Shown piece after piece: positions 19,637 to 64,000 of a stretch of 64,000 nt of DNA. The position numbers and the translations under genes were made by a program. Where the stretch lies: NCBI GenBank assembly GCA_021234155.1, contig JAJEKV010000034.1, positions 5,222,028 to 5,286,027 on the forward strand, in the 5' to 3' direction. Origin of the DNA: Isoetes taiwanensis (Eukaryota; Streptophyta; Lycopodiopsida; Isoetales; Isoetaceae). The notes under the pieces were generated by a model. The model was not told the origin of the DNA. It worked only from the letters and a program-made list of their open reading frames with translations, and searched no databases. Numbering within the stretch: position 1 is the first letter of the stretch; the number at the start of each line of letters is the position of its first letter.

Positions 19637-19641
19637 GACGA

Positions 19642-20010: not shown

Positions 20011-20016
20011 CTAACC

Positions 20017-28705: not shown

Positions 28706-30788
28706 TAATTACTACATGTATTTCAGATTTTCCCATTGGAAAAAAGTTACACCTAGTCAATTTAACCCAAGGTAATCCTGCACAGAGTCAGGTTGCAATT
28801 GAAACTATGCCCAATTAGAATGCATGACATCTAGTTTATGCCAATCTGTCTATCTATCTTTGTTCAAGTAGCTGTATGTGCAAATACACTAATCAACTGC
28901 TAAATTATTGTCATTCATGCATTATGCCTTTTAACAAATATCATTACATTGTTCGAACATTAAATAAGACATAACTGCACATGCAAATAACAACGCAAAA
29001 CACTGGCATATTAACATTATTGTGCAACAAGCATGGTGAAGCTATTAGCAGATATGTGTAATAAGCTAGCTTTTACAATCTGTGGCAATACTATTTATAG
29101 CAACCATCAAAAAGGCTGGCTTAATCAAAGAGCCTAACTGTCTGTAGCACCAAGTTGCACTGGTTCATCATGCAAATTATTATGAGATACTAACATACCG
29201 ACCTAGAGAGGAGACCCTCTCATATCAAGATCCCAAATCTACGATACAATATAAAGATGTAGGTTTCAGCATCATGCAAAGGAGAAGTAGATTTGATGCT
29301 AAAAGTACATCAGATAGCATGCACGAATTTAAGAACTTATTTCTAGCAAGAGCTTAGGTCATGAATATTGGGACCTGTTTCTGGGTACAGCAAATGCTAA
29401 GCAATTTGCTAAGCTACATTAGAACCATCACACCTATTTTAATGCATTGCAAACACAATCATCACTAAATAACATAAGTGCTATTCTCGATGAGCAAGCA
29501 GATATCCAAAATAGTTGCAAATAATGCACCCATATTTATTGTGGAAAAAAGCATCAATTAAAATAACTTAGGCAGACCTGAGTGAAGCCCTTTGTGCCAG
29601 CTTTATGTCATGCGCATTGTGCATTTATTTGACAAGAAGACTATTGTCTGTAGCTCCATTGTTGTCTTGTATTTCCAATGTAGCATCGGTGAATGTTAGA
29701 TGAGCTTTGCATTGCCCATTATTCGTGCGATTTTCAACCTTTGGATTACAAGCGGGCAATATGGTAATGTGGCAAATAGATGCCTATACAATTTGACTAT
29801 CTAAACATGAGAAAAAAATCGAATATCTATTGACCTTTGCTTTCAAATTGACAAAGAACTATACCCCTTCTTGGCTAAGTGGTATCGGATCTAAAGCTCA
29901 ATAGAGCAATCTCATGCAAACCCAATAAATCCACATGTCTACTCTATTGTTACCTTAAATATCCTCTTAGCTTATGCTAGTTCTAAATCCACCAAGGGAC
30001 AATGCAAATGCTTTCGGTACATCTTTGGACCAGCTCTCATATATTCAGTGCATAACACAATCATCTAGAATAAGGATCTAAAATCTCTATGGTACCAACT
30101 GGACTTAGCTTAATGCAATAAATTAGAGCAAATTAATATTAAGCTATCAATGTAATTTTTCCAGCTTAAGTAATGGAATGGAGTATTACTATTTTATTAC
30201 AATGAATTAACATAAAGACCGAGCAAACTGTTGAGCTTGATCCATAGTGCCAATGCCATAAGTAGATGCGTTGATGTCCTTTTTGTGGTGAATCCGTCAT
30301 AGTTGCTCAACTCCAGTCCACTACACTGGCTTTATAATCTCCATTTGAGCAGTTGAGTTTGGATCTGTTGCCATCTCCATCGTCTACAGAGTTTACCATG
30401 GATCTACGGCAATCGTTTGCACTCCTCTGATCAACCCTTGGGCTAGAAGCAAGATGATTCTGCCTTAATAAATCCGTGCTAACCACAACCTATCTGTAAG
30501 GCGCTGTGCATAATCCCTGTTTTTAGAGTTCTTTTATAAACCAGAGGCCTGCCCTTGCTACCGTCAGTACCAGGATGTGCGCTTTAGATCCATACCTAAA
30601 AGAGGCCATGCCGGAGTCCTGTACAAACGAATTCCCTTGCAAAAGTTCCAGGTCAAAAAACCTAAATCGGCATGGTAGATCAGCATATATCCGAAATCCT
30701 ACCTTTTTCTAAACTTGCTATTTCTTTTTCCATATCTTTGTCACTATTTGCAAAAGCCATTAGTCATACAATATAATCATATACTTTA

Positions 30789-31768
30789 CTCTGCTACCCA
30801 AGGCGCTCTGAAAGCTGTAGGCGCTCTGAAACCCTAGGCGCTCTGAAAGCCGGTCACACGTTTTCAATCATAACTGGAGATCTGGAAGTCCGTTTCAGCC
30901 GAAATCTGTTGCGTTGGAAAGCCATCTCAGAGTTCTTTCTATCGGTATGTGATTTGCATATGTTTCACTGATTATTTTACATCAGAAACACAGATTTTCG
31001 GGCTGCAAATTGGGGTCCCAAAAAACCCTGAAGTGCTGTTGATGCTGCCCAAACACTTTTGATCATATCTGGAGATCAAGGACTCCGTTTTTGCTGAAAT
31101 TTATTGCGTTGGAAAGTCATCTCAGATTTCTTCCTATTGGTATGTAATTTTTATATGTTTTCTATGATTTTTCCTCTGCAAAAACTCGAACTTTCTGGCT
31201 GCAGATCGGGCTAAAAAAAAAAAAACCCTGAAGTGCTCGTGGTATTGTCCACATATTTTCTATCATTATCGGCAGATTTTAACTCCGTTTCAGCTGGAAT
31301 TTGTCACGTTCGAAAGCTCCCTCAGCGACCTTTCTGAAGGTATGTGATTTGCATGTGTTTGAATGGTGTTTCCAGCAAAAACACATATTTACAGCCTGCA
31401 CCACCAGTTTGTGGTTCATATTACATTTTTGTTCATATCTCTTTCTCTGTTCGGTTTCTCATGAAATTTATATCTTTGGAAAGCTCTCTCAGAGTTCTTT
31501 CAAAGATATTTTATGTTGCTAATGTTAGACAGGATTTCAGAGCAAAAACAACAGATTTTTCAGTCTTTGGCTTTAGGGTTTCCATTGTTTGATTTTTCAA
31601 GACTATATACTTTTCTTCATATCTATTGATCGGCGGCTGTTTTGGGATCAATGCATATCATTGGAATTCTTGTTACGTGATGATTATAAAGACATATGGT
31701 TTGTACACATTCGCTTAAGATCCGAGAGGAGAAAACAACAAGTTTTGCAACCCGATTTTAAGGCGGAT
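30789..31768 (+). repeat. Degenerate 170-200-bp tandem repeats before LINE-A
   Basis: Opens with three copies of AGGCGCTCTGAAA spaced 17-18 bp (30801, 30819, 30836). About five diverged repeats follow, each with a '..TCATATCTGGAGATC...CTCCGTTT..GCTGAAATTT.TTGCGTTGGAAAG..ATCTCAGA' plan, starting near 30860, 31057, 31257, 31426 and 31592. The same block, more decayed, precedes LINE-B at ~41540-42345 but is absent before LINE-0. Confidence 0.7.
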
Positions 31769-32338
31769 TGAGGGTGTGATACCATCCAATCACCTTGTCT
31801 TAAAGCATTTACATGTTGAAGCCTTGCGCACGCGCCGCCCGTAAGGGGAAAACCATTGCTTATTTTCATTTCGGACAAAAAGCGTGAAGGTGGCAAAGGT
31901 TGCATTAGATTTTGCGCTTGATTTATGCACTTGAACACTTTCGGGCGGTAATCAGAAGGTGAAAGAGCCCGCACTTGCTTCTTGCACTTGGAAGCCCGCG
32001 ACCGCCGACGACCGCGTGGAAGCTTTCAGACGGGCGTCTGTAAAAGGATAGAGGTTGTGCATCATCAAAGTGCTTGGAGGCTTTCAGACAAGCAAATGTG
32101 CATCCGTAAGGTGGCGAGAGGTTGCACTAGAGGTCGCGCTTGATTTATGCACTTGAACACTTTCGGGCGGTGTCCGTAAGGTGAAAAGAAAGCACACTAC
32201 TTCTTGCACTTGGAAGCCCGCGGTGTCCGCCGACATCGTGGAAGCTTTCAGACGGGCGTCTGTAAAAGGATAGAGGTTGTGCATCATCAAAGTGCTTGGA
32301 GGCTTTCAGACAAGCGTCTGTAGGGTGACACCGTATTC
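31769..32338 (+). promoter_or_regulatory. LINE-A 5' UTR, ~222-bp monomers
   Basis: Two consecutive monomers repeat a block containing TTGCACTTGGAAGC, TTTATGCACTTGAACACTTT and the dyad CAGACGGGCGTCTG (32027-32040 and 32249-32262, 222 bp apart). A final dyad CAGACAAGCGTCTG lies at 32307-32320 just before the ORF1 start. LINE-0 has essentially one monomer. Monomer-number variation suggests a promoter array. Confidence 0.6.
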
Positions 32339-33125
32339 ATGGCAACTCCGGTGATAGAAGAGCCGGACGAGCCCTGCGTCCCTTCATCCAACACCACAGA
32401 TATGCATGTGGATGGTGCTGATACGCAGTCCCCTCTACCTAGCGCAGACATGGCAGCAAAACTTCTACTGGGAGAGTACATAGATGCCATTCCCAATCGC
32501 AGGCCAGATGACACTGGCAAAATTAGCCAGTGCATAATCGAAAAAGAGAAGCGGGCAAAGTCTCGGCAACAAGCATAGCTTCGGCAGGCATATATGAGAT
32601 ACTCTAGCCTAGCGGCAAGTCGTATCCGTGCTTCACCACCACCAAACCAGGTAGTTGAGGAGCACTGGAAACAGGTTCAAGCAATGGCAGAGGGCAACAG
32701 CTCGAATTGCTTGCTTGGCGAGGAAATGCAGACCTCGACCCAAATTGCTCAAAGAGGCAGCCGGTAGCTCTTGAAAAATAGTGTGTTTCAAAGATGGAGA
32801 CCCAAGATACAAAGACTGAAGATGGCCTTCGCCAGTGCACTGGAAGGCGTAAGGATAAGAAGAGTCTTCGACATGCAGGCCCGCGATAGACTCCTTGTAC
32901 ACCGCCATGGAAACCATGACACGGGACAAGCAACGTGTTGAGCGGGGAGACAATGGTAACCATCTCCCCGCCCGATCGAGGTCGAGGAGGCTGCATCGTG
33001 ATGCGAAAAGTCCGTAGCTTTTGAAGAGAGAGGTCCACAATTGAGAGCCCTTCAAAGTAGGGTCGAGGACACAAGAAGTGGCCTCATCATCTGCAATGAA
33101 CCCTATGCTAGACTCGCTTGCGTAA
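32339..33125 (+). pseudogene. LINE-A ORF1 (coiled-coil protein), broken
   Basis: ATG at 32339. The clean frame to 32578 (79 codons) is acidic then Lys/Arg-rich (MATPVIEEPDEPCVP..., KLLLGEYIDAIPN). The remaining coiled-coil part, parallel to 5357-5823, is readable only across frameshifts (SVAFEERGPQLRALQSRVED near 33015-33070). Compared with LINE-0, the damage is at different places, so neither copy alone shows the whole frame. Confidence 0.55.
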
Positions 33126-33199
33126 CCGGAGCATAGCTCCAGCCCAAGATCGAAGATGCAGATTTCGAGGCAGCCCATTCTTGAACAAGGCAAGGGCCT

Positions 33200-36100
33200 C
33201 AATGCAACGCTCATGAGCAATTGCAACGGTGCATGCATGAATTGACAAAGGCAACAACAATTTCAGCGAGGGCTAAGCTCCGGCCGGGGAAGGAGAGACC
33301 ACTACACACACCGCCAGGCTATCCCCACCTGCGCAGTGGCGTCGGCCCGGGCCGTCTAGTCTCGCACCCCCAAGCCGCTCCATGCCACCCCCGCCCCAAA
33401 GCGTAGGCCACAACCTATGCCCCGGCGACAAACAACTCCGTTGTGCTGGCGGGGATTGACCCAACGGTCAGAGAGCTTTAAGAGTCGAGACGGAGAAGCC
33501 ACAATGTGGTGGTATGCGGTGGCCTAATGAAAGAGGCGGGGAGGACCTCATTAACCGCTCCAAATGTTGATTCTTGCTCGAATGACATTTCCCATGCCTG
33601 TAAACATTATTAGGGCGAGGCGCCATGGCGTCCAAACCGAACCGCCCACGGGTGGTCCACGTTCAGACACGAGATGCACAAGTGAAAGCAGCCATTTTGC
33701 GCCGGGGTAAGCGACTAAAGGGAACCGCCACTCATGTTGGCCGAGACCTGACCTCGCCCAACAAAGAAGACCGCAGTGCACGAGTTGGCCAAAGTTAAAG
33801 CATTCTGAGCATGGGAGGAGCTGCGGGACTGATTCGGGCAAGATGCAAATTTCCGGGCGTAGAATCTTTGCTGAATCTTGCTAACCCTCCGGCGACCTAC
33901 GGCGGGGCCAGCGCTTTGCACATGCTACAAGCCCATGCGGCTCAAGTTGCCTCACCTTCTGTTGCTCTCACATCTCAGGGCTGCTCAAAGTTGCCTCACC
34001 TTCATTTGCTTTCGCACATCTGTTTGCTTCCGCTACGCCACTCCCCCGCCTTGCCGCCATGCCCCGAATCCCCACCGCCGCCCGCGCCAACAAATAGGAA
34101 TTGTGCCTCGCATGGTCTCCACGGAATTGTCGGGGCTTCCCATGGCGAGGGAGATAGTCTCAACTTCGGTTACCACGGACATGGATCTCATCTTCCTCAT
34201 GGAAACATGGGAGCATGCGGGACCGGGGATGCGACTTGCCGGGGATACCAAAGACTACTCAATCTTCAATGATTGCACAGAAAGGGGGCATGGGGAGTTG
34301 CACTACTACCGAACAACCTTGGCACAATCAATCTCCTTGTTCAAGGCGCATAAGCACAACCGGTACCGGGTGCTGTATGCAAAACCGCAGTAGAGACCCT
34401 CTTTGTGGCAGCCCGCTACTTTCCACATGCGAGAAAGCAACTTCTATCACACCCACCGGATGTGGATAGGCCGGACCCCTATGTCGATCTATATGATGAC
34501 ATACATCAACATAAGCGGTTAGGCGTTGTCATACTCCTTGGGAGACTTCAATGCCGCGCACGGGGTAGAACAACCCATGAGATTTGATCCCTTGATTTGA
34601 TGATGATATATTGCAGTTCGTCCCCCCGAAGGAGCTTGGCCACCGGACATCGATGACAATCGGGTCACGCTATGGTCGACAGTTGCTTTTGCTCGCAAAG
34701 ATCTTTGACCCGGTAATCCGCAATGGGTCGGCACAATGGCCTTCCACCCTTAAAGAGCACTTGTAGGCGGGGAAAACCGTGGGGCGGATCTAGTGTGGTG
34801 GACTATGTGTTGGTGCTCGAAAGGCAGATATGCATGTCATCAAGCCACTTTCGTGTGGGAACAACTAATTGGGATGAAGAGATCGACTCAAGACCACTTA
34901 CCACTTTACTTGAAGTTGGCTTGGCAGGTTGTCGCGAACCCCGGTGCAACAACTCCTCACATGCCTCATTGCGATTGGATTATGAACATGCGAGGGGCTT
35001 ATGCCCGTGATGTTTATAGATGACTGGCAGAAATTTTGCAATATCCTACACTAGAGCAAATGACACGTTACCGGGGACCGATGTGCTTAGGGCTCGGCGG
35101 CAGAGAGGTGCTTTGGGATAAGCCACCCCATGACGGACCTCCAAGAACACAACCTTCCCACGTAATCAATGGTTTGATGCGAGTGCAAGGAACACAAACG
35201 CCGGCTCCGCCAAGTCATGCACCGCGCTTTAAGCCCACATGCGGTCGACAAGCCGCAGCATCTTCCTTAAAGCTAAAAAGCCGGGGTACATTGCAAGACA
35301 TCAAAGGGAAATGTGTTACCTCACTCGGCGTCACCCTAGGACCTTCGGCGAAGAGGGTTCTTAGAAAGCCGATGCAGCCCCCGGGGAATATCATTCCCCA
35401 AGCGATGGAGGCAATACTTGCAACAGGCTATCGACCCTCGGGGTGCACATGCGGCATTACCCTTGCAAGAAGGCCCGATCTTTGGAAATCACAGATTCGG
35501 ACGTGGAACAAGGCCATAACGTCTTGCGAATGGGAAAGCTCCGGACTTGGATGGTATACGAGGCAGAATTGCTTAAATTAGGCGGGCAGTCCATAATACC
35601 GGTCTTGGCCGCCTTGTTCAACAAGGCATTACATGAAGCTTCCCTACCGCGGTGGATCAATAGCCAGAGTTGTTCCCATCTATAAAGGCGGGGGTGACCC
35701 GCCTTTGCCAGTACCGAACAATCATGGTCAGTTCGGTGTTTGCAAAACCGCTAACGGGATTCTCGGCGGCGGTTATTGGCGGGGCGAGGCGGCGGAGAGG
35801 TCGCGGGCCCTCACCCAGGCGGATTGAGACCTTCGACTACATCTTCACGTTCACCGAACTCGATTGAAGACGGGAACGCCCGTCCGGGATCCTATATTGT
35901 TGCTTTGTGGATTTTCGCGGCGTTTGACAACGCGCCTCGGGGAAAAACTATGGGCAAGGCGCAACGGTGGGGTTCCTGTAGATTTGCAGAATGCGATTAT
36001 CAAAGCTATATGAAAGATGCTCTGCGGTTGCGGCCGGACAAGCCAACCATTTGATAGTAGTATGTCGGGGTTCGTCGGGATGCCCTCTCTCCCCAACATT

Positions 36101-37460
36101 GTTTGGGCTTTACATTGATCAATTGGAGAGCCGGGCTGGCGATAATGGGGCGATGGAGCTCACCTTCTCTATCGAGATCATCGCGGTTAATATATCGCGA
36201 TGATGTGGACCTCCTAACTTACACACCCGCGGACGTGCAGCGACATCTCGATGCCCCCGGACACGATCGCCAAGCGCCCGATATGCATCAACCCCGCCAA
36301 GACTAAGGTGGTTTTCATATCATCTTCCACGTCAGAGGTTCCCCTCCTTCCGGTTACCAAGGCGAATGTGGAAGTTGCATCCACATACAAGTATTTGGGA
36401 GTGGAGTTTCCTTCTACTATGCACCGGGACACATCCATACGGCTACCAGTGACCGCAGTGGGAAGGCACTATATGCAATGCAAAACAATAGTCATACCAA
36501 GCGGAGTTGTATGATTGGGCCCATCCATCCACACCGTTCAAGGTCTTAGTAGAGGTCGTCCTTTTATACCGGGGTGGAAGTATGGGGCCCAATAGTATCA
36601 CTTGCTACTTGAATGACTTGGGCAGTCGAGAAAGCCTTCTTGAAATGCGAGCACTAGGGGTGAAGTCCACAGGTCCCATATCAAATTCTCTTGCGAGGGA
36701 GGAGGATTCTTGCCTCTTAGAGAGGGTGGCCCTTGATCGCCACATTGTCTATTTTGGAAGGTGGTCAATATGGACGATGCTCGTCTCCCTAAACTAGCTT
36801 ATATCATGGAAATGGGGCATAGCGCCTCAAGGCCCTGGAGGGAAAAGAGAGCTCAATGGTTGGCTAGATGGAATGTGCAGGACCGCAGTGTGCATACATA
36901 TGCAAACAGAGGCGGTCGCCATAGCTTGAGGCAATATCTTGGCGCTTGCTTCCCTCAGCAAGTTTTGGGATGCCAATGCCCTTGAACATGTCAAGGCAAA
37001 GACACTATCGGTATACATAAATCCCACATTGGGCGAGGCCGCGAATGCTACTGGCGTACCCACTTGCCCATGAAAAGGCGCAGACTCATTGCCTCCATTC
37101 GCGCAGGGGCACATCATCTTGGTGAGGCGGGCCCGCCGCGACAGGCTCTGTCAATCGCCGCCAAATGGGGAGTCATTGAGGATGAATCTCATACCGCCAA
37201 AGATATGATCAAATTGACGCCTTTATGCCGAGTTGGTGGGGGCTTTCGCCCGCCCATTACATGTGACATTGAGCACGACATCCGTCTGCGGGTCTTGCGG
37301 GATCATACCTTCGGAGGTTATGGACATGCGAGATCAGCTATGTCCTCGGGCACACACTTGACATGTATATATACATTGATGTATACTTATGCGGTTTTGA
37401 TTCTTATTATCGCCCGCGGTTTTCCCTCGAAAACCTTCGGGTGGGGTTTTCTTTCCCGGT
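33200..37460 (+). pseudogene. LINE-A ORF2: endonuclease + reverse transcriptase, broken
   Basis: Endonuclease: TDMDLIFLMETWEH (~34177-34218), GDFNAAHG at 34541-34564, SSVVDYVLV (~34786-34812). The SDH triad is disturbed here (GACTCAAGACCAC) but intact in LINE-0. Reverse transcriptase: GCPLSPTLFGLYIDQLES near 36080-36130. The YADD site reads TATCGCGATGAT (YRDD, ~36187-36198) where LINE-0 has TATGCTGATGAT. C-terminal part: HLPMKRRRLIASIRAGAHHL and GVIEDESHTAKD (~37055-37200). Frames change many times. Confidence 0.72.
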
Positions 37461-37522
37461 AATAAGTTCTTTAGCTCATAATGGGTCCCATAGGTCGATT
37501 GGCCTCAGTGGACGATAAAAAA

Positions 37523-37550
37523 TCATTCTCATTCATTCTCATTCTCATTC
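37523..37550 (+). repeat. LINE-A 3' tail, CATTCT-type short repeat
   Basis: Five CATTCT/CATT units end the LINE and abut TTAATTATTACCC of the array unit. Some non-LTR clades end in short tandem repeats instead of poly(A). Confidence 0.65.
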
Positions 37551-38952
37551 TTAATTATTACCCACAACGCTCTTGAATATGAGATTATGTCTTAGAATGT
37601 TTTCTCTGTCCTTCAGACCATGTTTGCTCCTTGTGTAACCAAGTAGGTCTATCCCATGCTTGCCTGCAAGATAACTTCTTGCATATAGATATCTACACTT
37701 GGCCAATACTCTTATACTTTTGAAATTTTCCACAACCCTGTCCAATTTTATCAATGCCATCAAATTATTTACGTTACTACAATATCTCATCAATATCTCA
37801 TCATTACCATCGACAAAAGGACATTATAAAATCACGCCTTAGATATCGGACCATATTTACTCCTTATGTAACTAAGTATAGTATGCACAGCCATTAATTG
37901 TAAAATAAGCATTGTGGATGAAAATAGTACCATTGACTTGGCATAAAATCTTTTAATCCACCATGAGCTTTGAGGCCTCGCATGTCAATTTTTGGAAAGT
38001 TCCCCATACATCACTTTACAAAACAAACAAAGGCCAACATTTCCCATGTTTATCGCCACATAAATAAAGATATATGTCTCAGTATCAAAGTGTACATGCA
38101 TTTCACCATTAGTTATAATAAAAAAGCCTGCCTCCTACGTAGGTCGGGGTGGGCCATTAATCATAAATAGAGTTAGCAACAAGGAGCGGGGACCTTGTTG
38201 CCAAAGCCAAACTCTACCTATATTGCCTAACTCTTATTGTGCAATAAAGAGACACATTATTTCTTTTTTTCTCACAAAGCCAAATGGCAGCATCATAAGC
38301 ATAAGAATACCCATATACATGAGAGACTCACCTTCAAGACCTTTTGTAGATATCGGGACCAAATCTTCCTTGGAGGCAAGCGTGTATGAGCCAGTAGCTA
38401 TCAATCAAATGTTAGTTGAAAGCCATCAAAATTTCCATTATAAATCAAGATGCACACAATGTTAATGAAAGTCACCAAAAGTTTGAGAGTATCATATTCA
38501 AAGGAGCCCAATGGCATTTTTTCACCGAGCCCAATGGCATTTTCAGCCTATCTTAGTGGATTTTCAGTCTATGCATTATTTGTATCGGGAATCATCATTT
38601 CCAATGCCAATTCTAATAGATATCCATGTATTAGTAAGAAATTATAAAACACAATATTTTAACCATTTTAAGGCCCCTAGTATAACTAGAGAAGGCGAAG
38701 TTAATGAAAAAACCTTTTAAAATCTGTTCATAGACTTTTACCTTCCATGGACTTTTGCAAAGACCACTTAGGTCAATATGCTCTTTAAGCCAAAACATGT
38801 GTAATTTTTTGACTTAAGCCTTAAGAATGGTTAAAATCAAAAAAATATACCACAATCTATAGCCAATAACAATTTCCTTTTGTCAATCATATTAAAATTT
38901 TGTCCAATACATCATATTTACCTTTAGGAGAGTTCAATAGAACAGTCTACGA

Positions 38953-39207
38953 TTAAAAATATTTTGGGATTAATCCCATAGAACTCAGCAGACTTGATAT
39001 CATAAATATATCTTCAATGTCATCATGTAGTATAGCTTTTCCAACTTGAATAAATAGGAAAACCAACCAAGGAGCAAGAAACCCGTTACTAAAGAGAACC
39101 AGAGGCCGATTAGCCTTAATCGGGGGGTAAGAGCCTAAGCTACTAGCAGGGTAAGCTATAGGTTTCTTGAGCTTATCGCCCTTCACCTCATTTGTTAACC
39201 CAAACAC
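38953..39207 (-). other. Open minus-strand frame in array unit A
   Basis: 84 codons: a polar start (GLTNEVKGDKLKKPIAY), a hydrophobic stretch (FLAPWLVFLFIQVGKAI) and an acidic/hydrophobic end. The C-terminal ~45 codons are kept in frame in the other units, but the middle differs or contains stops. It could be a decayed exon of a membrane protein or chance. No family is recognised. Confidence 0.2.
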
Positions 39208-41272
39208 AATAGAAAGATGTAAATTTGCTGCAGATTAAATGTACATGTGACAAACCATCAACATTAATTTAATTATGCATGCACATGCACACAAAAAGGT
39301 GAATCCTGGTGGATAGGTCACTAGCGATGCGCCATAAAGCAAATATGTTCCAAAGACATAGCAATTGTTTCATAGCAACAACCAGAAAGTACATGTTCCA
39401 CGATCTTAGTAGGCACCGGTCCAAAGTATAAGCAAACAAATTTCACATGGGCCTACATGTATTTCAGATTTTCCCTTTGGAAAAAGTTACACCTAGTCAA
39501 TTTAACCCAAGGTAATCCAATTGCGTAGTGGGTTGCAATTGAAACTATGCCCAATTAGAATGCATGACATCTAGTTTATGCCAATCGTCTATCTATCTTT
39601 GTTCAAGTAGTCAGGATTGCAAAAATACACTAATCAACTGCTAAATTATTGTCATTCATGCATTATGCCTTTTAACAAATATCATTACACTATTGAACAT
39701 TAAATAAGACATAACCGCACATGCAAATAACAGCATAAAAACACGGCATATTAAAATTATTGTGCAACCAAAGATGGTGAAGCTATTAGCGGATATGTAT
39801 AACAAGCTAGCTTTTACAATCTGTGGCAATACTATTTATAGCAACCATCAAAAGGCTGGCTTAATCAAAGAGCCCTAGCGTGCGTAGCACCAAGTTGCCT
39901 TTGGTTCATCATGCAAATTATTATGAGATACTAACATACCGACCTAGAGAGGAGACCCTCTCATATCAAGATCCCAAATCTACGATACAATATAAAGATG
40001 TAGGTTTCAGCATCAAAAAGAAGAAGTAGATTTGATGCTAAAAGTACATCAGATAGCATGCACGAATTTAAGAACCTATTTCTAGCAAGAGCTTATGTCA
40101 TGAATATTGGGACCTGTTTCTGAGTACAGCAAATGCTAAGCAATTTGCTAAGCTACATTAGAACCATCACACCTATTTTAATGCATTGCAAACACAATCA
40201 TCACTAAATAACATAAGTGCTATTCTCGATGAGCAAGCAGATATCCAAAATAGTTGCAAATAATGCACCCGTATTTATTGTGGAAAAAAACATCAATTAA
40301 AATAACTTAGGCAACCTGAGTGAAGCCCCTTGTGCCAGCTTTATGTCATGCGCATTGTGCATTTATTTGACAAGAAGACTATTGTCTGTAGCTCCATCAT
40401 TGTCTTGTATTTCCAATGTAGCATCAGCTGAATGTTGCAGACTGCTGCATTGCTCATTATCTGTGCGATTTTCAACCTTTGGATTACAAGCAGGCAATAT
40501 GGTAATGTGGCAAATAGATGCCTATACAATTTGACTATCTAAACCGCAGAAAAAAATCGGAATATCTATTGACACTGCTCAGCCCAGCAAAGAACTATAC
40601 CCTTCTTAGCTAAGCAGGGTATCAGATCTAAAGCTCAATAGAGCAATCTCATGCAAACCCAATAAATCCACATGTCTACTCTATTGTTACCTTAAATATC
40701 CTCTTAGCTTATGCTAGTTCTAAATCCACCAAGGGACAATGCAAATGCTCAGTACATGCTGGACCAGCTCTCATATATTCGATTACATAACACAATCATC
40801 TAGAATAGCGGATCTAAAAAATCTCTATGGACTGCAATTAACCGGACTTGGCTTAATGCAATAAATTAGAGCAAATTAATATTAAGCTATCAATGTAATT
40901 TTTCCGGCTTACAGAATGGAATGGGTATTACTATTTTATTACAATGAATTAACATAAAAGACCAAACAAACCTGTTGAGCTTGATCCATAGTGCCAATGC
41001 CATAAGTAGATCGTTGATGTCCTTTTGTGGTGAATCCGTCATAGTTGCTCAACTCAAATCCACTACACGGGCTGGCTTTATAATCTCCATTTTTGCGGTT
41101 GAGTTTGGATCTGCATTTGCCATCTCCATCGTCTACGAGTTTACCATGGATCTACCCGTCGTTTGCACTCCTCGATCAACCCCGCGGGCTAGAAGCAAGA
41201 TGATTACGCCTTAATAAATATGTTGCTAACCACAACCTATATCGTAAAGGTATTTGTGCATAATCCTCTGTT

Positions 41273-41512: not shown

Positions 41513-41534
41513 ACAATATAATCATATATACTTA

Positions 41535-49324: not shown

Positions 49325-52300
49325 TCACATGTATTTCAGATTTTCCCCGGAAAAAAGTTACACCTAGTCAATTTAACCCCGGTAATCTGCCTTGCAGTTA
49401 GTTGCAATTGAAACTATGCCCAATTAGAATGCATGACATCTAGTTTATGCCAATCGTCTATCTATCTTTGTTCAAGTATTTTGTATGTGCAAATACACTA
49501 ATCAATCTGCTAAATTATTGTCATTCATGCATTATGTTTTTTAACAAATATCATTACTTTATTAGAAAATTAAATAAGACATTTGACATGCAAATAACAA
49601 CATAAAATGGCATATTAAAATTATTGTGCAACCAAACATGGTGAAGTTTACTAGCGGATATGTGTAACAAGCTAGCTTTTACAATCTGGCAATACTATTT
49701 ATAGCAACCATCAAAAAAGGCTGGCTTAATCAAAGAACCTAACTATCAGAAGCACCAAGTTGCCTTTGGTTCATCATGCAAATTATTATGAGATACTAAC
49801 ATACCGACCTAGAGGAGACCCTCTCATATCAAGATCCCAAATCTACGATACAATATAAAGATGTAGGTTTCAACATCATGCAAAGGAGAAGTAGATTTGA
49901 TGCTAAAAGTACATCAGATAGCATGCACGAATTTAAGAACCTATTTCTAGCAAGAGCTTATGTCATGAATATTGAGACCTGTTTCTGGGTACAACAAATG
50001 CTAAGCAATTTGCTAAGCTACATTAGAACCATCACACCTATTTTACATCACTAAATAACATAAGTGCTATTCTCGATGAGCAAGCAGATATCCAAAATAG
50101 TTGCAAATAATGCATCCGTATTTATTGTGGAAAAAAGCATCAATTAAAATAACTTAGGCAGACCTGAGTGAAGCCCTTTGTGCCAGCTTTATGTCATGCG
50201 CATTGTGCATTTATTTGACAAGAAGACTATTGTCTGTAGCTCCATCATTGTCTTGTATTTCCAATGTAGCATCAGCTGAATGTTGCAGACTGCTGCATTG
50301 CTCATTATCTGTGAGATTTTCAACCTTTGGATTACAAGTAGGCAATATGGTAATGTGGCAAATAGATGCCTATACAATTTGACTATCTAAACCGCAGAAA
50401 AAAATCGGAATATCTATTGACCTTTGCTTTCAGCCCAAAGAAAGAACTATACCCTTCTTAGCTAAGCGGTGGTCGGATCTAAAACTCAATAGAGCAATCT
50501 CATGCAAACCCAATAAATCCACATGTCTACTCTATTGTTACCTTAAATATCCTCTTAGCTTATGCTGGTTCTAAATCCACCAAGGGACAATGCAAATGCT
50601 TTCGGTACATCTTTGGACCGACTCTCATATATTGGTGCATAACACAATCATCTAGAATAAGCGGATCTAAAATCTCTATGGTACCAAGCTGGACTTAGCT
50701 TAATGCAATAAATTAGAGCAAATTAATATTAAGCTATCAATGTAATTTTTCGGCCGTAATGGAATGGAGTATTACTATTTTATTACAATGAATTAACATA
50801 AAAAGACCGACAAACTGTTGAGCTTGATCCATAGTGCCAATGCCATAAGTAGATGTGTTGATGTCCTTTTTGTGGTGAATCCGTCATAGTTGCTCAACTC
50901 CGGTCCACTACTGCGGCTTTATAATCTCTATTTGGGCGGTTGAGTTTGGATCATTGCCATCTCCATCGTCTCTGAGTTTACCATGGATCTCTGACAATCG
51001 TTTGCACTCCCTCGATCAACCCTTGGGCTAGAAGCAAGATGATTACGCCTTAATAAATATGTGCTAACCACACCCCTATCACGTGTGCATAATCCCTGTT
51101 TTAGAGTTCTTTTATAAACCGAGGCACGCCCTTGCTACCGTCGATTACCGAGGATGTGCGCTTTAGATCCATACCTAAAAGAGGCCATGCCGGAGTCCTG
51201 TACAAACGAATTCCCTTGCAAAAGTTCCAGGTCAAAAAACCTAAATCGGCATGGTAGATCAAAGATATATCGAAATCCTACCTTTTTCTAAACTTGTTAT
51301 TTCTTTTTCCATATCTTTGTCACTATTTGCAAAAGCCATTAGTCATACAATATAATCATATACTTTATTTCAATATCTCTTAATTATTACCCATAACGCT
51401 CTTGAATATGAGATTATGTCTTAGAATGTTTTCTCTGTCCTTCAGACCATGTTTGCTCCTTGTGTAATCAAGTAGGTCATCCCATGCTTTGCAAGATAAC
51501 TTCTTGCATATAGATATCTACACTTGGCCAATACTCTTATACTTTTGAAATTTTCCACAACCCTGTCCATTTTTTTTTTTATCAATGCCATCAAATTATT
51601 TACGTTACTACAATATCTCATCAATATCTCATCATTACCATCGACAAAAGGACATTATAAAATCACGCCTTAGAATTCTTTCCATGCCTATCGGACCATA
51701 TTTACTCCTTATGTAACTAAGTATAGTATGCACAGCCATTAATTGTAAAATAAGCATTGTGGATGAAAATAGTACCATTGACTTGGCATAAAATCTTTTA
51801 ATCCACCATGAGCTTTGAGGCCTCGCATGTCAATTTTTTGGAAAGTTCCCCATACATCACTTTACAAACAAACAGTGCCAACATTTCCCATGTTTATCTG
51901 CCACATAAATAAAGATATATGTCTGTATCAAAGTGTACATGCATTTCACCATTAGTTATAATAAAAAAAGCCTGCCTCCTACCGTAGGTCAGGGTGGGCC
52001 ATTAATCATAAATAGAGTTAGCAACAAGGAGAGTACGTAGGACCTTGTTGCCAAAGCCCTACCCTACCTATATTGCCTAACTCTTATTGTGCAATAAGAG
52101 ACACGTATTTCTTTTTCTCACAAAGCCAAATGGCAGCATCATAAGCATAAGAATACCCATATACATGAGAGACTCACCTTCAAGACTAGCCTGTAGATAT
52201 CAGACCAAATCTTCCTTGGAGGCAAGCGTGTATGAGCCGTAGATATCAATCCAAATGTTAGTTGAAAGCCATCAAAATTTCCATTATAAATCAAGATGCA

Positions 52301-53308
52301 CACAATGTTAGCTGAAAGTCACCAAAAGTTTCGGAGTATCATATTCAAAGGAGCCCAATGGCATTTTTTTTTGAGCCCAATGGCATTTTCAGCCTATCTG
52401 CCGTGGATTTTCCGGTCTATGCATTATTTGTATCGGAATCATCATTTCCAATGCCAATTCTAATAGATATCCATGTATTAGTAAGAAATTATAAACACCT
52501 GTATTTTAACCATTTTAAGGCCCCTAGTATAACTAGAGAACTGAGTTAATGAAAAAAACCTTTTAAAATCTGTTCCAATGGATTTTTTACCTTCCATGGA
52601 CTTTTGCAAAGACCACTTAGGTCAATATCACGACCTTAAGCCAAAAGCAGGTGTAATTTTGACTTAAGCCTTAAGAATGGTTAAAATCAAAAAAATATAC
52701 CACAATCTATAGCCAATAACAATTTCCTTTTTGTCAATCATATTAAAAAATTTTGTCCAATACATCATATTTACCTTTAGGAGAGTTCAATAGAACGATT
52801 CTACGATTACAAATATTTTGGGATTAATCCCATAGAACTCGGCCGGAGACTTGATATCATAAATATATCTTCGGTGTCATCATGTCGTATAGCTTTTCCA
52901 ACTTGAATAAATAGGAAAACCAACCAAGGAGCAAGAAACCGGTTACTGCGGTAGAACCCGGAGGACGATTAGCCTTAATCCCGAGGGGTAAGAGCCTAAG
53001 CTACTAACAGGTAAGCTATAGGTTTCTTGAGCTTATCGCCCTTCACCTCATTTGTTAACCCAAACACAATAGAAAGATGTAAATTTCTTGCAGATTAAAT
53101 GTACATGTGACAAACCATCGGCATTAATTTAATTATGCATGCACATGCACACAAAAGGTGAATCTGGTGGATAGGTCACTAGCGATGCACTTACAGCAAA
53201 TATGTTCCAAAGACATAGCAATTACGTTTCATAGCAACGGTCCAGAAAGTACATGTTCACGATCTTAGTAGGCACGGTCAAAGTATAAGCAAACAAATTT
53301 CACGAGGC
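49325..53308 (+). repeat. Tandem array unit C (3.98 kb, no LINE)
   Basis: An uninterrupted unit. At the position of the LINE insert in A/B it reads ATACTTTATTTCAATATCTCTTAATT (~51359-51385), giving the empty-site sequence. Contains the hairpin cluster at 51975-52100. Confidence 0.88.
51975..52100 (+). repeat. Hairpin/foldback cluster inside each array unit
   Basis: A perfect hairpin CTCTTATTGTGCAATAAGAG (52081-52100; 9-bp arms) lies beside GCAACAAGG (52021-52029) pairing with CCTTGTTGC (52043-52051), and AGAGTTAG pairs with CTAACTCT. Flanking GGTCAGGGTGGGCC and GCCCTACCCTACC extend the symmetry imperfectly. The same structure is present in the other units (about 38135-38240, 48025-48140, 55985-56110, 60800-60925). 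It could be a remnant foldback element or a structured transcript. Confidence 0.55.
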
Positions 53309-56300
53309 CTACATGTATTTCAGATTTTCCCACTGGAAAAAAGTTACACCTAGTCAATTTAACCCAAGGTAATCCTGCACAGAGTCAGGTTGCAATTGAA
53401 ACTATGCCCAATTAGAATGCATGACATCTAGTTTATGCCAATCTGTCTATCTATCTTTGTTCAAGTAGCTGTATGTGCAAATACACTAATCAACTGCTAA
53501 ATTATTGTCATTCATGCATTATGCCTTTTAACAAATATCATTACACTGTTCGAACATTAAATAAGACATAACTGCACATGCAAATAACAACATAAAAACA
53601 ACGGCATATTAAAATTATTGTGCAACTTGACATGGTGAAGCTATTAGCAGATATGTGTAACAAGCTAGCTTTTACAATCTGTGGCAATACTATTTATAGC
53701 AACCATCAAAAAGGCTGGCTTAATCAAAGAGCCTAACTGTCTGTAGCACCAAGTTGCACTGGTTCATCATGCAAATTATTATGAGATACTAACATACCGA
53801 CCTAGAGAGGAGACCCTCTCATATCAAGATCCCAAATCTACGATACAATATAAAGATGTAGGTTTCAACATCATGCAAAGGAGAAGTAGATTTGATGCTA
53901 AAAGTACATCGAGATAGCATGCTAATTTAAGAACCTATTTCTAGCAAGAGCTTATGTCATGAATATTGGGACACTTTACGGGTACAACAAATGCTAAGCA
54001 ATTTGCTAAGCTACATTAGAACCATCACACCTATTTTACATCACTAAATAACATAAGTGCTATTCTCGATGAGCAAGCAGATATCCAAAATAGTTGCAAA
54101 TAATGCATCCGTATTTATTGTGGAAAAAAGCATCAATTAAAATAACTTAGGCAGACCTGAGTGAAGCCCTTTGTGCCACTTTTATGTCATGCGCATTGTG
54201 CATTTATTTGACAAGAAGACTATTGGTGCGTAGCTCCATCATTGTCTTGTATTTCCAATGTAGCATCGGTGAATGTTTGCACTCTTTGCATTGCTCATTA
54301 TCTGTGAGATTTTCAACCTTTGGATTACAAGCAGGCAATATGGTAATGTGGCAAATAGATGCCTATACAATTTGACTATCTAAACCGCAGAAAAAAATCG
54401 GAATATCTATTGACACTGCTCAGCCCAGCAAAGAACTATACCCTTCTTAGCTAAGCAGGGTATCAGATCTAAAGCTCAATAGAGCAATCTCATGCAAACC
54501 CAATAAATCCACATGTCTACTCTATTGTTACCTTAAATATCCTCTTAGCTTATGCTAGTTCTAAATCCACCAAGGGACAATGCAAATGCTCAGTACATGC
54601 TGGACCAGCTCTCATATATTCAGTGCATAACACAATCATCTAGAATAAGCAGATCTAAAATCTCTATGACTGTACCAACTGGACTTAGCTTAATGCAATA
54701 AATTAGAGCAAATTAATATTAAGCTATCAATGTAATTTTTCCAGCTTCGTAATGGAATGGAGTATTACTATTTTATTACAATGAATTAACATAAAAGACC
54801 AGCAAACCTGTTGAGCTTGATCCATAGTGCCAATGCCATAAGTAGATGTGTTGATGTCCTTTTTGTGGTGAATCCGTCATAGTTGCTCAACTCCAGTCCA
54901 CTACACTGGCTTTATAATCTCTATTTGAGCAGTTGAGTTTGGATCTGTTGCCATCTCCATCGTCTACAGAGTTTACCATGGATCTACGGCAATCGTTTGC
55001 ACTCCTCTGATCAACCCTTGGGCTAGAAGCAAGATGATTCTGCCTTAATAAATATGTGCTAACCACAACCTATCTGTAAGGCGCTGTGCATAATCCCTGT
55101 TTTTAGAGTTCTTTTATAAACCAGAGGCCTGCCCTTGCTACCGTCAGTACCAGGATGTGCGCTTTAGATCCATACCTAAAAGAGGCCATGCCGGAGTCCT
55201 GTACAAACGAATTCCCTTGCAAAAGTTCCAGGTCAAAAAACCTAAATCGGCATGGTAGATCAGCATATATCCGAAATCCTACCTTTTTCTAAACTTGCTA
55301 TTTCTTTTTCCATATCTTTGTCACTATTTGCAAAAGCCATTAGTCATACAATATAATCATATACTTTATTTCAATATCTCTTAATTATTACCCACAACGC
55401 TCTTGAATATGAGATTATGTCTTAGAATGTTTTCTCTGTCCTTCAGACCATGTTTGCTCCTTGTGTAATCAAGTAGGTCATCCCATGCTTGCCTGCAAGA
55501 TAACTTCTTGCATATAGATATCTACACTTGGCCAATACTCTTATACTTTTGAAATTTTCCACAACCCTGTCCAATTTTTTTTTTTATCAATGCCATCAAA
55601 TTATTTACGTTACTACAATATCTCATCAATATCTCATCATTACCATCGACAAAAGGACATTATAAAATCACGCCTTAGAATTCTTTCCATGCCTATCGGA
55701 CCATATTTACTCCTTATGTAACTAAGTATAGTATGCACAGCCATTAATTGTAAAATAAGCATTGTGGATGAAAATAGTACCATTGACTTGGCATAAAATC
55801 TTTTAATCCACCATGAGCTTTGAGGCCTCGCATGTCAATTTTTTGGAAAGTTCCCCATACATCACTTTACAAACAAACAGTGCCAACATTTCCCATGTTT
55901 ATCTGCCACATAAATAAAGATATATGTCTGTATCAAAGTGTACATGCATTTCACCATTAGTTATAATAAAAAAAGCCTGCCTCCCTACCGTAGGTCAGGG
56001 GTGGGCCATTAATCATAAATAGAGTTAGCAACAAAGGAGAGTACGTGGGACCTTGTTGCCAAAGCCCCTACCCTACCTATATTGCCTAACTCTTATTGTG
56101 CAATAAGAGACACGTATTTCTTTTTCTCACAAAGCCAAATGGTAGCATCATAAGCATAAGAATACCCATATACATGAGAGACTCACCTTCAAGACTAGCC
56201 TGTAGATATCAGACCAAATCTTCCTTGGAGGCAAGCGTGTATGAGCCGTAGATATCAATCCAAATGTTAGTTGAAAGCCATCAAAATTTCCATTATAAAT

Positions 56301-57306
56301 CAAGATGCACACAATGTTAGTTGAAAGTCACCAAAAGTTTCGGAGTATCATATTCAAAGGAGCCCAATGGCATTTTTTCACTGAGCCCAATGGCATTTTC
56401 AGCCTATGCCGTGGATTTTCCAGTCTATGCATTATTTGTATCGGAATCATCATTTCCAATGCCAATTCTAATAGATATCCATGTATTAGTAAGAAATTAT
56501 AAACACCTGTATTTTAACCATTTTAAGGCCCCTAGTATAACTAGAGAACTGAGTTAATGAAAAAAACCTTTTAAAATCTGTTCAACAGACTTTTACCTTC
56601 CATGGACTTTTGCAAAGACCACTTCCGGTCAATATGCAGCCTTAAGCCAAAAACATGTGTAATTTTGACTTAAGCCTTAAGAATGGTTAAAATCAAAAAA
56701 ATATACCACAATCTATAGCCAATAACAATTTCCTTTTGTCAATCATATTAAAAATTTTGTCCAATACATCATATTTACCTTTAGGAGAGTTCAATAGAAC
56801 AGTCTACGATTAAAAATATTTTGGGATTAATCCCATAGAACTCAGCAGACTTGATATCATAAATATATCTTCAGTGTCATCATGTCGTATAGCTTTTCCA
56901 AATTGAATAAATAGGAAAACCAACCAAGGAGCAAGAAACCCGGTTACCTGCAGTAGAACCAGAGGACAGTTAGCCTTAATCAGGGTAAGAGCCTAAGCTA
57001 CTAACAGGTAAGCTATAGGTTTCTTGAGCTTATCGCCCTTCACCTCATTTGTTAACCCAAACACAATAGAAAGATGTAAATTTGCTGCAGATTAAATGTA
57101 CATGTGACAAACCATCAGCATTAATTTAATTATGCATGCACATGCACACAAAAAGGTGAATCCTGGTGGATAGGTCACTAGCGACACCGCGACAAAGCAA
57201 ATATGTTCCAAAGACATAGCAATTACGTTTCATAGCAACGGTCCAAAGTACATGTTCACGATCTTAGTAGGCGGTCAAAGTATAAGCAAACAAATTTCAC
57301 ACAGGC
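53309..57306 (+). repeat. Tandem array unit D (4.0 kb)
   Basis: Uninterrupted and very similar to E and F over long blocks. Differences to other units are mostly short replacements at CAG/CTG positions, for example 54268-54300. Confidence 0.9.
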
Positions 57307-59778
57307 CTACATGTATTTGGATTTTCCCCTTTGGAAAAAAGTTACACCTAGTCAATTTAATCCCCAAGGTTATTGAAACTATGCCCAATTAGAATGCATG
57401 ACATCTAGTTTATGCCAATCTGTCTATCTATCTTTGTTCAAGTAGTCAGTATGTGCAAATACACTAATCAATCGCTAAATTATTGTCATTCATGCATTAT
57501 GCCTTTTAACAAATATCATTACAATTATTCGAACATTAAATAAGACATAGCGCACATGCAAATAACAACATAAAACAACGGCATATTAAAATTATTGTGC
57601 AACCGGCATGGTGAAGCTATTAGCGGTATATATGTAACAAGCTAGCTTTTACAATCTGTGGCAATACTATTTATAGCAACCATCAAAAGGCTGGCTTTTA
57701 ATCAAAGAGCCTAACTGTGCAGAAAGCACCAAGTTGCACTGGTTCATCATGCAAATTATTATGAGATACTAACATACCGACCTAGAGAGGAGACCCTCTC
57801 ATATCAAGATCCCAAATCTACGATACAATATAAAGATGTAGGTTTCAACATCATGCAAAGGAGAAGTAGATTTGATGCTAAAAGTACATCGAGATAGCAT
57901 GCCTAATTTAAGAACCTATTTCTAGCAAGAGCTTATGTCATGAATATTGAGACCTGTTTCTGGGTACAACAAATGCTAAGCAATTTGCTAAGCTACATTA
58001 GAACCATCACACCTATTTTACATCACTAAATAACATAAGTGCTATTCTCGATGAGCAAGCAGATATCCAAAATAGTTGCAAATAATGCATCCGTATTTAT
58101 TGTGGAAAAAAGCATCAATTAAAATAACTTAGGCAGACCTGAGTGAAGCCCTTTGTGCCAGCTTTATGTCATGCGCATTGTGCATTTATTTGACAAGAAG
58201 ACTATTGTCTGTAGCTCCATCATTGTCTTGTATTTCCAATGTAGCATCAGCTGAATGTTTAGATGACTCTTTGCATTGCTCATTATCGTGAGATTTTCAA
58301 CCTTTGGATTACAAGCGTGGGCAATATGGTAATGTGGCAAATAGATGCCTATACAATTTGACTATCTAAACCGCAGAAAAAAATCGGAATATCTATTGAC
58401 ACTGCTCAGCCCAGCAAAGAACTATACCCTTCTTAGCTAAGCAGGGTATCAGATCTAAAGCTCAATAGAGCAATCTCATGCAAACCCAATAAATCCACAT
58501 GTCTACTCTATTGTTACCTTAAATATCCTCTTAGCTTATGCTAGTTCTAAATCCACCAAGGGACAATGCAAATGCTCAGTACATGCTGGACCAGCTCTCA
58601 TATATTCAGTGCATAACACAATCATCTAGAATAAGCAGATCTAAAATCTCTATGACTGTACCAACTGGACTTAGCTTAATGCAATAAATTAGAGCAAATT
58701 AATATTAAGCTATCAATGTAATTTTTCCAGCTTCGTAATGGAATGGAGTATTACTATTTTATTACAATGAATTAACATAAAAGACCAGCAAACCTGTTGA
58801 GCTTGATCCATAGTGCCAATGCCATAAGTAGATGTGTTGATGTCCTTTTTGTGGTGAATCCGTCATAGTTGCTCAACTCCAGTCCACTACACTGGCTTTA
58901 TAATCTCTATTTGAGCAGTTGAGTTTGGATCTGTTGCCATCTCCATCGTCTACAGAGTTTACCATGGATCTACGGCAATCGTTTGCACTCCTCTGATCAA
59001 CCCTTGGGCTAGAAGCAAGATGATTCTGCCTTAATAAATATGTGCTAACCACAACCTATCTGTAAGGCGCTGTGCATAATCCCTGTTATTATGCTACTTA
59101 TTTCTAAACTGGGTGCACCCTGAACTACCACAGTCGTTGGATCTGTCGATCCTACGGCCCATATTGTATGTTGGAGCCTCAGGGTGCCTCTCGTTTCGCT
59201 TATGCTCAGTTATGATGGGGTTTCCTATGATTTTGAAATGTCAAATACGAGTTTGCCTAAGGTTTTGATGCGATATCGAGACTCTATACGGCTTTGTATA
59301 CGGATTTAGAAGATGTATTTGGGTCTTGAACCTCTACCAAAAAAAACTCAATATCCGATAAGTCTACATTAACCAACATTTCTCTATGAGCTCATGTAAC
59401 TATTTTCTATCTTGAGTCTATGTTTTTTTTTTCTTTTTTTTTTTTTTTTTATAACAACCCATTCAATTATCTTAGGAATATATGGCCTATGGTTCTAAGA
59501 TTTGTCATTTTAACATCCATATGAAATCCCCCTGGAACCCCCTGTTATTATGCTATTATGCTCAGTTATGATGGGGTTTCCTATGATTTTGAAATGTCAA
59601 ATACGAGTTTGCCTAAGGTTTTGATGCGATATCGAGACTCTATACGGCTTTGTATCACATTTAGAAGATGTAATCTCTGGGGTCTTGAACCTCTACCAAA
59701 AAAAAACTCAATATCTGATAAGTCTACATTAACCAACATTTCTCTATTTGCTCATGTAACTATTTTTTATCTTGAGTC

Positions 59779-59814
<36 letters not shown>

Positions 59815-62117
59815 CAACCCATTCAATTATCTTAGGAATATATGGCCTATGGTTCTAAGATTTGTCATTTTAACATCCATATGAAATCCCCCTGGAACCC
59901 CCTGTTATTATGCTACTTATTTGTTCTTTTATAAACCAGAGGCCTGCCCTTGCTACCGTCAGTACCAGGATGTGCGCTTTAGATCCATACCTAAAAGAGG
60001 CCATGCTTAGGAGTCCCAGACAAACGAATTCCCTTGCAAAAGTTCCAGGTCAAAAAACCTAAATCGGCATGGTAGATCAGCATATATCCGAAATCCTACC
60101 TTTTTCTAAACTTGCTATTTCTTTTTCCATATCTTTGTCACTATTTGCAAAAGCCATTAGTCATACAATATAATCATATACTTTATTTCAATATCTCTTA
60201 ATTATTACCCTAGCAGCTCTTGAATATGAGATTATGTCTTAGAATGTTTTCTCTGTCCTTCAGACCATGTTTGCTCCTTGTGTAATCAAGTAGGTCATCC
60301 CATGCTTGCCTGCAAGATAACTTCTTGCATATAGATATCTACACTTGGCCAATACTCTTATACTTTTGAAATTTTCCACAACCCTGTCCAATTTTTTTTT
60401 TTATCAATGCCATCAAATTATTTACGTTACTACAATATCTCATCAATATCTCATCATTACCATCGACAAAAGGACATTATAAAATCACGCCTTAGAATTC
60501 TTTCCATGCCTATCGGACCATATTTACTCCTTATGTAACTAAGTATAGTATGCACAGCCATTAATTGTAAAATAAGCATTGTGGATGAAAATAGTACCAT
60601 TGACTTGGCATAAAATCTTTTAATCCACCATGAGCTTTGAGGCCTCGCATGTCAATTTTTTGGAAAGTTCCCCATACATCACTTTACAAACAAACAGTGC
60701 CAACATTTCCCATGTTTATCTGCCACATAAATAAAGATATATGTCTGTATCAAAGTGTACATGCATTTCACCATTAGTTATAATAAAAAGCACGCGCCTC
60801 CCTGGTAGGTCGGGGTGGGCCATTAATCATAAATAGAGTTAGCAACAAAGGAGAGTGCGTAGGACCTTGTTGCCAAAGCCCTACCCTACCTATATTGCCT
60901 AACTCTTATTGTGCAATAAGAGACACGTATTTCTTTTTCTCACAAAGCCAAATGGCAGCATCATAAGCATAAGAATACCCATATACATGAGAGACTCACC
61001 TTCAAGACCTTTTGTAGATATCGGACCAAATCTTCCTTGGAGGCAAGCGTGTATGAGCCGTAGATATCAATCCAAATGTTAGTTGAAAGCCATCAAAATT
61101 TCCATTATAAATCAAGATGCACACAATGTTAGCTGAAAGTCACCAAAAGTTTCGGAGTATCATATTCAAAGGAGCCCAATGGCATTTTTTCACTGAGCCC
61201 AATGGCATTTTCAGCCTATGCCGTGGATTTTCCAGTCTATGCATTATTTGTATCGGAATCATCATTTCCAATGCCAATTCTAATAGATATCCATGTATTA
61301 GTAAGAAATTATAAACACCTGTATTTTAACCATTTTAAGGCCCCTAGTATAACTAGAGAACTGAGTTAATGAAAAAAACCTTTTAAAATCTGTTCAACAG
61401 ACTTTTACCTTCCATGGACTTTTGCAAAGACCTCTTCCGGTCAATATGCAGCCTTAAGCCAAAAACAGGTGTAATTTTGACTTAAGCCTTAAGAATGGTT
61501 AAAATCAAAAAAATATACCACAATCTATAGCCAATAACAATTTCCTTTTGTCAATCATATTAAAAATTTTGTCCAATACATCATATTTACCTTTAGGAGA
61601 GTTCAATAGAACAGTCTACGATTACAAATATTTTGGGATTAATCCCATAGAACTCAGCAGACTTGATATCATAAATATATCTTCAGTGTCATCATGTCGT
61701 ATAGCTTTTCCAACTTGAATAAATAGGAAAACCAACCAAGGAGCAAGAAACCTGGTTACCTGCAGTAGAACCAGAGGACAGTTAGCCTTAATCAGGGTAA
61801 GAGCCTAAGCTACTAACAGGTAAGCTATAGGTTTCTTGAGCTTATCGCCCTTCACCTCATTTGTTAACCCAAACACAATAGAAAGATGTAAATTTGCTGC
61901 AGATTAAATGTACATGTGACAAACCATCAGCATTAATTTAATTATGCATGCACATGCACACAAAAAGGTGAATCCTGGTGGATAGGTCACTAGCGATCTG
62001 CACAGCAAATATGTTCCAGCACATAGCAATTCTGTTCATAGCAACAGTCCGAAAGTACATGTTCACGATCTTAGTAGGCACAGTCCAAAGTATAAGCAAA
62101 CAAATTTCACACAGGCC
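57307..62117 (+). repeat. Tandem array unit E (4.8 kb with 0.84-kb insert)
   Basis: Like unit D but with an insert at 59087-59922 after CATAATCCCTGTT. Confidence 0.9.
59081..59922 (+). mobile_element. Unclassified insert with 23-bp terminal direct repeats and a 356-bp internal duplication
   Basis: Bounded by CCCTGTTATTATGCTACTTATTT at 59081-59103 and 59900-59922. Inside, a 356-bp segment starting TATGCTCAGTTATGATGGGG is present twice in direct order (59201-59556, 59557-59912) with ~95% identity by eye. Each copy holds a T-tract (59423-59450, 59780-59810). No coding motif, no terminal inverted repeat. The other units read CCCTGTTTTTAGAGTTC at this point. Confidence 0.7.
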
Positions 62118-64000
62118 TACATGTATTTCAGATTTTCCCACTGGAAAAAAGTTACACCTAGTCAATTTAACCCAAGGTAATCCTGCACAGAGTCAGGTTG
62201 CAATTGAAACTATGCCCAATTAGAATGCATGACATCTAGTTTATGCCAATCTGTCTATCTATCTTTGTTCAAGTAGCTGTATGTGCAAATACACTAATCA
62301 ACTGCTAAATTATTGTCATTCATGCATTATGCCTTTTAACAAATATCATTACACTGTTCGAACATTAAATAAGACATAACTGCACATGCAAATAACAACG
62401 CAAAACACTGGCATATTAAAATTATTGTGCAACCAGCATGGTGAAGCTATTAGCAGATATGTGTAACAAGCTAGCTTTTACAATCTGTGGCAATACTATT
62501 TATAGCAACCATCAAAAAGGCTGGCTTAATCAAAGAGCCTAACTGTCTGTAGCACCAAGTTGCACTGGTTCATCATGCAAATTATTATGAGATACTAACA
62601 TACCGACCTAGAGAGGAGACCCTCTCATATCAAGATCCCAAATCTACGATACAATATAAAGATGTAGGTTTCAACATCATGCAAAGGAGAAGTAGATTTG
62701 ATGCTAAAAGTACATCAGATAGCATGCACGAATTTAAGAACCTATTTCTAGCAAGAGCTTATGTCATGAATATTGAGACCTGTTTCTGGGTACAACAAAT
62801 GCTAAGCAATTTGCTAAGCTACATTAGAACCATCACACCTATTTTACATCACTAAATAACATAAGTGCTATTCTCGATGAGCAAGCAGATATCCAAAATA
62901 GTTGCAAATAATGCATCCGTATTTATTGTGGAAAAAAGCATCAATTAAAATAACTTAGGCAGACCTGAGTGAAGCCCTTTGTGCCAGCTTTATGTCATGC
63001 GCATTGTGCATTTATTTGACAAGAAGACTATTGTCTGTAGCTCCATCATTGTCTTGTATTTCCAATGTAGCATCAAATTTGAATGTTGTGATGTTTTGCA
63101 TTGCTCATTATCACGTGAGATTTTCAACCTTTGGATTACAATTAGGCAATATGGTAATGTGGCAAATAGATGCCTATACAATTTGACTATCTAAACCCTG
63201 AGAAAAAATCGGAATATCTATTGACCTTTGCTCATTGACAAAGAACTATACCCTTCTTAGCTAAGCAGGGTATCAGATCTAAAGCTCAATAGAGCAATCT
63301 CATGCAAACCCAATAAATCCACATGTCTACTCTATTGTTACCTTAAATATCCTCTTAGCTTATGCTAGTTCTAAATCCACCAAGGGACAATGCAAATGCT
63401 TTCAGCATTACATCTTTGGACCAGCTCTCATATATTGATTGCATAACACAATCATCTAGAATAAGCGGATCTAAAATCTCTATGGATAGTACCTAACTGG
63501 ACTTAGCTTAATGCAATAAATTAGAGCAAATTAATATTAAGCTATCAATGTAATTTTTCCAGCTTCGTAATGGAATGGAGTATTACTATTTTATTACAAT
63601 GAATTAACATAAAAGACCACAAGAAACTGTTGAGCTTGATCCATAGTGCCAATGCCATAAGTAGATGTGTTGATGTCCTTTTGTGGTGAATCCGTCATAG
63701 TTGCTCAACTCCAGTCCACTACAAGCGGCTTTATAATCTCCATTTGGCGGTTGAGTTTGGATCTGTTGCCATCTCCATCGTCTCTGAGTTTACCATGGAT
63801 CTACGGCAATCGTTTGCACTCCTCTGATCAACCCTTGGGCTAGAAGCAAGATGATTACGCCTTAATAAATATGTGCTAACCACAACCTATCTGTAAAGGT
63901 ATTTGTGCATAATCCTTTTTTTAGAGTTCTTTTTATAAACCCGAGGGCTGCGCCCTTGCTACCGTCAGTACCAGGATGTGCGCTTTAGATCCATACCTAA
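62118..64000 (+). repeat. Tandem array unit F (partial, runs off the window)
   Basis: The first ~1.88 kb of the unit, up to the window end. The array therefore extends to the right. Confidence 0.9.

Follow-up and report, generated by a model that had tools for sequence, protein, structure and literature searches.

The copies of a tandem repeat in the Isoetes taiwanensis assembly differ from one another mainly at CAG and CTG trinucleotides (CWG), which raises the question of whether this pattern belongs to the plant or to its assembly. The stretch that was analysed, here called the window, is 64,000 nucleotides long (C1039:5222028-5286027) and comes from a genome of 1.66 Gb in 1110 contigs. 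It contains LTR and LINE fragments together with a direct array of units of about 4 kb, which extends beyond the window end; another, unlinked copy (Y) lies on contig C1047. Self-alignment placed six units on the forward strand, and in each of them CWG was broken far more often than other trinucleotides: the partial unit F of ~2.1 kb at 28712-30788 (12 of 33 CWG vs. 5% of others), A at 37549-41528 (41 of 69 vs. 12%), B at 47514-51367 (49 of 73 vs. 17%), C at 51378-55368 (21 of 53 vs. 3.5%), D at 55379-59091 (12 of 50 vs. 3.1%), and E, which continues past the window, at 60196-64000 (18 of 62 vs. 3.3%). Between units D and E, at 59199-59920, a 360-base unit occurs twice in tandem (95% alike), with 30 consecutive T at 59781. 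An 8-kb repeat (28712-36617 vs. 39453-46908, ~75% identity) reaches outside the 4-kb unit; the alignment suggests an older, larger duplication whose identity is lowered by CWG errors. Elsewhere in the window, transposon domain pieces lie at 6914-9869 (reverse strand), 13757-14221 and 20339-20803 (forward), and 25865-26311 (reverse). They include Copia-type RVT_2, integrase, and Pol_BBD pieces with shifted frames, as well as LINE RVT_1, zf-RVT, Tf2-1 SH3, and chromo domain pieces, and the assembly error discussed below may account for some of the frame breaks.

The units were aligned, and the positions of variant clusters were compared with shifted masks as the expectation. A preliminary description of this DNA had held that differences between copies are focused on CAG/CTG, and this is borne out: variant clusters held 35% of CAG/CTG occurrences in pairs among units C, D, and E, vs. 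9% expected (3.7-fold, z 19.9), with a 2.8-fold enrichment across all array pairs. In an alignment of eight copies, CAG/CTG sites defined by majority rule were broken in 31% of copies, compared with 8% for all trinucleotides, and the deviation rate was 22% at the CWG centre, falling to 2–5% at a distance of at least 4 bases. Tabulated by trinucleotide, as had been suggested, and compared with an expectation from shifts, CWG was clearly enriched, with 260 deviating bases observed and 108 expected, the maximum over 2000 shifts being 160. None of CAA, CAT, CAC, GAC, GAG, AAG, TAG, or GCA had a central deviation peak in the same alignment. CCG/CGG did have one, smaller than that of CWG, and was enriched in variant clusters against shifted masks as strongly as CAG/CTG, in part since CAG/CTG is most often replaced by CGG/CCG. 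The CWG-focused pattern is therefore real within the assembly. The majority consensus is unreliable as truth, given that the majority in the 5S rDNA arrays described below is itself wrong, so the CWG rates in the window are probably underestimates.

The pattern was also found in a duplication with a 2.7-kb offset on the forward strand (copy 1 at 18772-22350, copy 2 at 21499-25082), where CAG/CTG enrichment in variant clusters was 2.0-fold (z 4.4, shifted masks) and the CWG-centred differences lie mostly at ~20260-20680. Other repeat pairs in the window gave mixed results, with a strong CWG focus at 61–76% identity and a null result in some short pairs. The variant strings quoted in the preliminary description were recovered, namely CCCACTGGAAAA at 53329 and 62137, CCCATTGG at 28732, CCCTTTGG at 39473 and 57327, and CCCCGGAAAA at 49345, along with TTAGCAGATATG at 29045, 53644, and 62450 vs. 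TTAGCGGATATG at 39786, and AACTGCACATGC vs. AACCGCACATGC at 39713. The CTG cluster that it had reported in the 2.7-kb duplication (21975-22010 vs. 24719-24741) is likewise present. Its statement that a CAGCTG...GCAGACTGCTGCATTGC block near 40425-40450 differs in every unit was incorrect: the block, at 40425-40455 on the forward strand, is intact in A, B, and Y in the eight-copy alignment and variously scrambled in C, D, E, F, and X.

The replacements themselves have a distinctive spectrum. Among 152 broken CWG in the array copies, 68 (45%) had a CpG in the replacement (CAG to CGG, CG, or CGA), compared with 0–6% for replacements of CAA, CAC, CAT, AAG, GAG, or TAG. Length was altered in 36 of the 152, CAG and CTG were broken equally, and the flanking base had little influence. 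In the eight-copy alignment, 34 of 507 CAG cells read CGG; the corresponding changes CAA to CGA (3 of 1326), CAC to CGC (1 of 531), and CAT to CGT (1 of 1389) were rare. As had been noted from the letters, the changes are not simple C-to-T: deamination-type outcomes (TAG, CAA, or TAA) account for 21 of the 152 (14%), and in both the window array and the 5S arrays the spectrum instead consists of indels and recurring wrong strings, many of them creating CpG.

The 5S rRNA gene offers a sequence of known truth against which such differences can be judged, and the genome's own recurrent copy was used as the reference. An identical 119-base 5S gene occurs in 11 copies across contigs C13, C907, C936, and C1103, and long 5S rDNA arrays lie on C13 and C907, where exact canonical copies are interspersed among damaged ones. 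Under the Rfam 5S model the canonical copy scores 110 bits, while bad copies neighbouring it in the same array score 41–55 bits. Across 84 copies in the two long arrays, breakage of the four CWG sites of the gene averaged 61%, and the CAG at position 39 had become CG in 52 of the 84 copies (CATCAGAAC to CATCGAAC). In a genome-wide motif search, the CG form of a strict 5S motif was found only in the C13 array. Indels make up 61% of the differences in the long arrays, and C-to-T/G-to-A changes 14%. The difference between copies per base was 0.20 in the 5S gene vs. 0.088 in its own spacer, the reverse of what evolution produces, and no evolutionary process known to us would let a conserved gene outpace the spacer next to it in an array under concerted evolution. 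The simplest reading is therefore error, and the array copies contradict the known 5S rRNA by Rfam score, by comparison with the canonical copies, and by gene against spacer. In the long array at C13:276000-306000, most copies look like damaged 5S genes.

CWG is nevertheless not the whole story, as 5S errors also occur at other sites, such as the AAGCGCGC stretch, and one CTG in the 5S spacer showed no variation among 69 units; sequence context must therefore also matter. The proposed focus on CWG stands as an enrichment of CAG/CTG, with the corrections that this CTG is invariant and that CCG/CGG is equally enriched.

The effect was absent from the genes and uniquely mappable loci tested (histone H4, dispersed 5S copies, and copy Y). 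Copy Y has 13% of its trinucleotides broken, as much as unit A, yet it shows no CWG focus, with a ratio of 0.9 (4 of 33 CWG broken) vs. 4–11 in every array copy. With a plant-type H4 query, which found 100% identical genes, all 16 full-length H4 copies had open frames, and a CAG-bearing 18S motif was intact at all 13 places found, although the strict search pattern would miss badly damaged copies. In the dispersed and small-cluster 5S copies, 60–71% of differences were C-to-T/G-to-A and 1–15% were indels, with CAG/CTG mostly intact. The small clusters on C1041 and C1103 show clean C-to-T/G-to-A decay, which contrasts with the error spectrum of the arrays. Since Y, the H4 genes, and the 18S motif are unaffected, the error is limited, in the places tested, to tandem or duplicated DNA.

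We are confident that systematic consensus error in the assembly accounts for the CWG-focused differences, most likely through basecaller or consensus miscalls at 5-methylcytosine in CHG context in native long reads, left uncorrected in tandem repeats. Genuine divergence is also present, chiefly in units A and B; the CWG-focused pattern is almost certainly absent from the plant itself. Native plant DNA carrying 5mC at CAG/CTG would be misinterpreted by a basecaller or polisher untrained on 5mC in that context. The misreads would often contain CpG (CAG to CGG or CG, CTG to CCG) and would otherwise be short scrambled or length-altered strings; models trained on human DNA, which meet 5mC mostly in CpG context, could favour such output. 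Because it is systematic, a miscall of this kind would survive read depth. Correction with accurate reads would succeed at uniquely mappable loci and fail in tandem arrays, where short reads map ambiguously, so that errors would persist in many copies and a few would be clean. We infer that the affected CWG sites carry 5mC and that short-read polishing failed in the arrays; the platform was probably nanopore.

The closest documented case is that of ONT errors at the Dcm sites CCAGG/CCTGG of Enterobacteriaceae (Wick et al. 2019, PMC6591954). In Klebsiella, ~70% of ONT consensus errors with default models lay in Dcm sites, and these errors almost disappeared after training on methylated DNA (PMC6591954). 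Both cases would involve systematic, depth-resistant error where a C-W-G core carries 5mC and the training data lack that modification; they differ in that the Dcm motif is affected across whole bacterial chromosomes, while here any CWG with any flank is affected, in a eukaryote, and mainly in tandem repeats. The pattern also resembles the poor accuracy of nanopore reads from native plant DNA, where non-plant models degrade plant reads, plausibly via methylation: a review describes ONT model training without native plant DNA and the need for accurate-read polishing (PMC7501810), and a second report describes improved plant accuracy with species-specific models (PMC9749173). The CAG-to-CpG signature found here in array copies is not described in the parts of PMC7501810 and PMC9749173 considered, and we identified no paper with this signature in the literature searched for CHG-specific ONT errors.

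Ordinary deamination of 5mC, by which CCG/CGG would become CTG/CAG, or CAG become TAG/CAA, through CpG and CHG decay, acts on the same methylated contexts and has points in its favour: CGG and CAG formally differ by a CpG transition, some broken CWG do read TAG, CAA, or TAA, and the dispersed 5S copies show such decay. We nevertheless consider it very unlikely as the cause. Such decay yields only C-to-T/G-to-A, and these transitions do not dominate in either the 5S arrays or the broken CWG; many replacements alter length or several bases. Decay would moreover reach all CpG contexts, and for this reason it fails to explain the pattern, as almost no matching change between CAN and CGN was seen in the other three contexts. 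Finally, CAG is the functional, ancestral form in the 5S gene, so the change there runs from CAG to CG. Even less credible are true sub-families of diverged units with gene conversion, in which the CWG focus is a chance of composition. Units A and B do have considerable non-CWG divergence, but chance is rejected by the shift permutations, and the copies carry differing short strings at the same sites amid long identical blocks, with no shared haplotype blocks.

The remaining explanation is that methylated CWG in tandem arrays undergo genuine mutagenesis or error-prone repair, through translesion synthesis or through excision of 5mC followed by faulty gap filling. DEMETER-type glycosylases excise 5mC in plants, and the restriction of the effect to tandem copies would fit. 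Such a process would, however, have to drive variation in a functional 5S gene above that of its spacer, hit the same sites in most 5S copies of two unlinked arrays yet leave neighbours perfect, generate CpG specifically, and leave the equally diverged, unlinked copy Y untouched, and we give it very little probability. It is similarly improbable that a real tandem-array-specific process acting on methylated CWG rewrites CAG/CTG into CpG-containing strings, 5S genes included. The preliminary description had preferred systematic consensus error at 5mCHG over mutagenesis, and the 5S comparison, copy Y, the intact H4 genes, the replacement spectrum, and the parallel with Dcm CCWGG all favour that choice.

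The CWG-focused pattern is almost certainly an ordinary artefact. Estimates of divergence, dating, gene annotation, and CpG counts are unreliable in the repeats of this assembly, as are rRNA gene counts or pseudogene claims drawn from it. The CWG artefact is itself useful as a quality signature: comparison of the 5S gene with its spacer, combined with CAG-to-CpG replacement, provides an internal test by which other long-read plant assemblies could be screened for this error without access to the reads.
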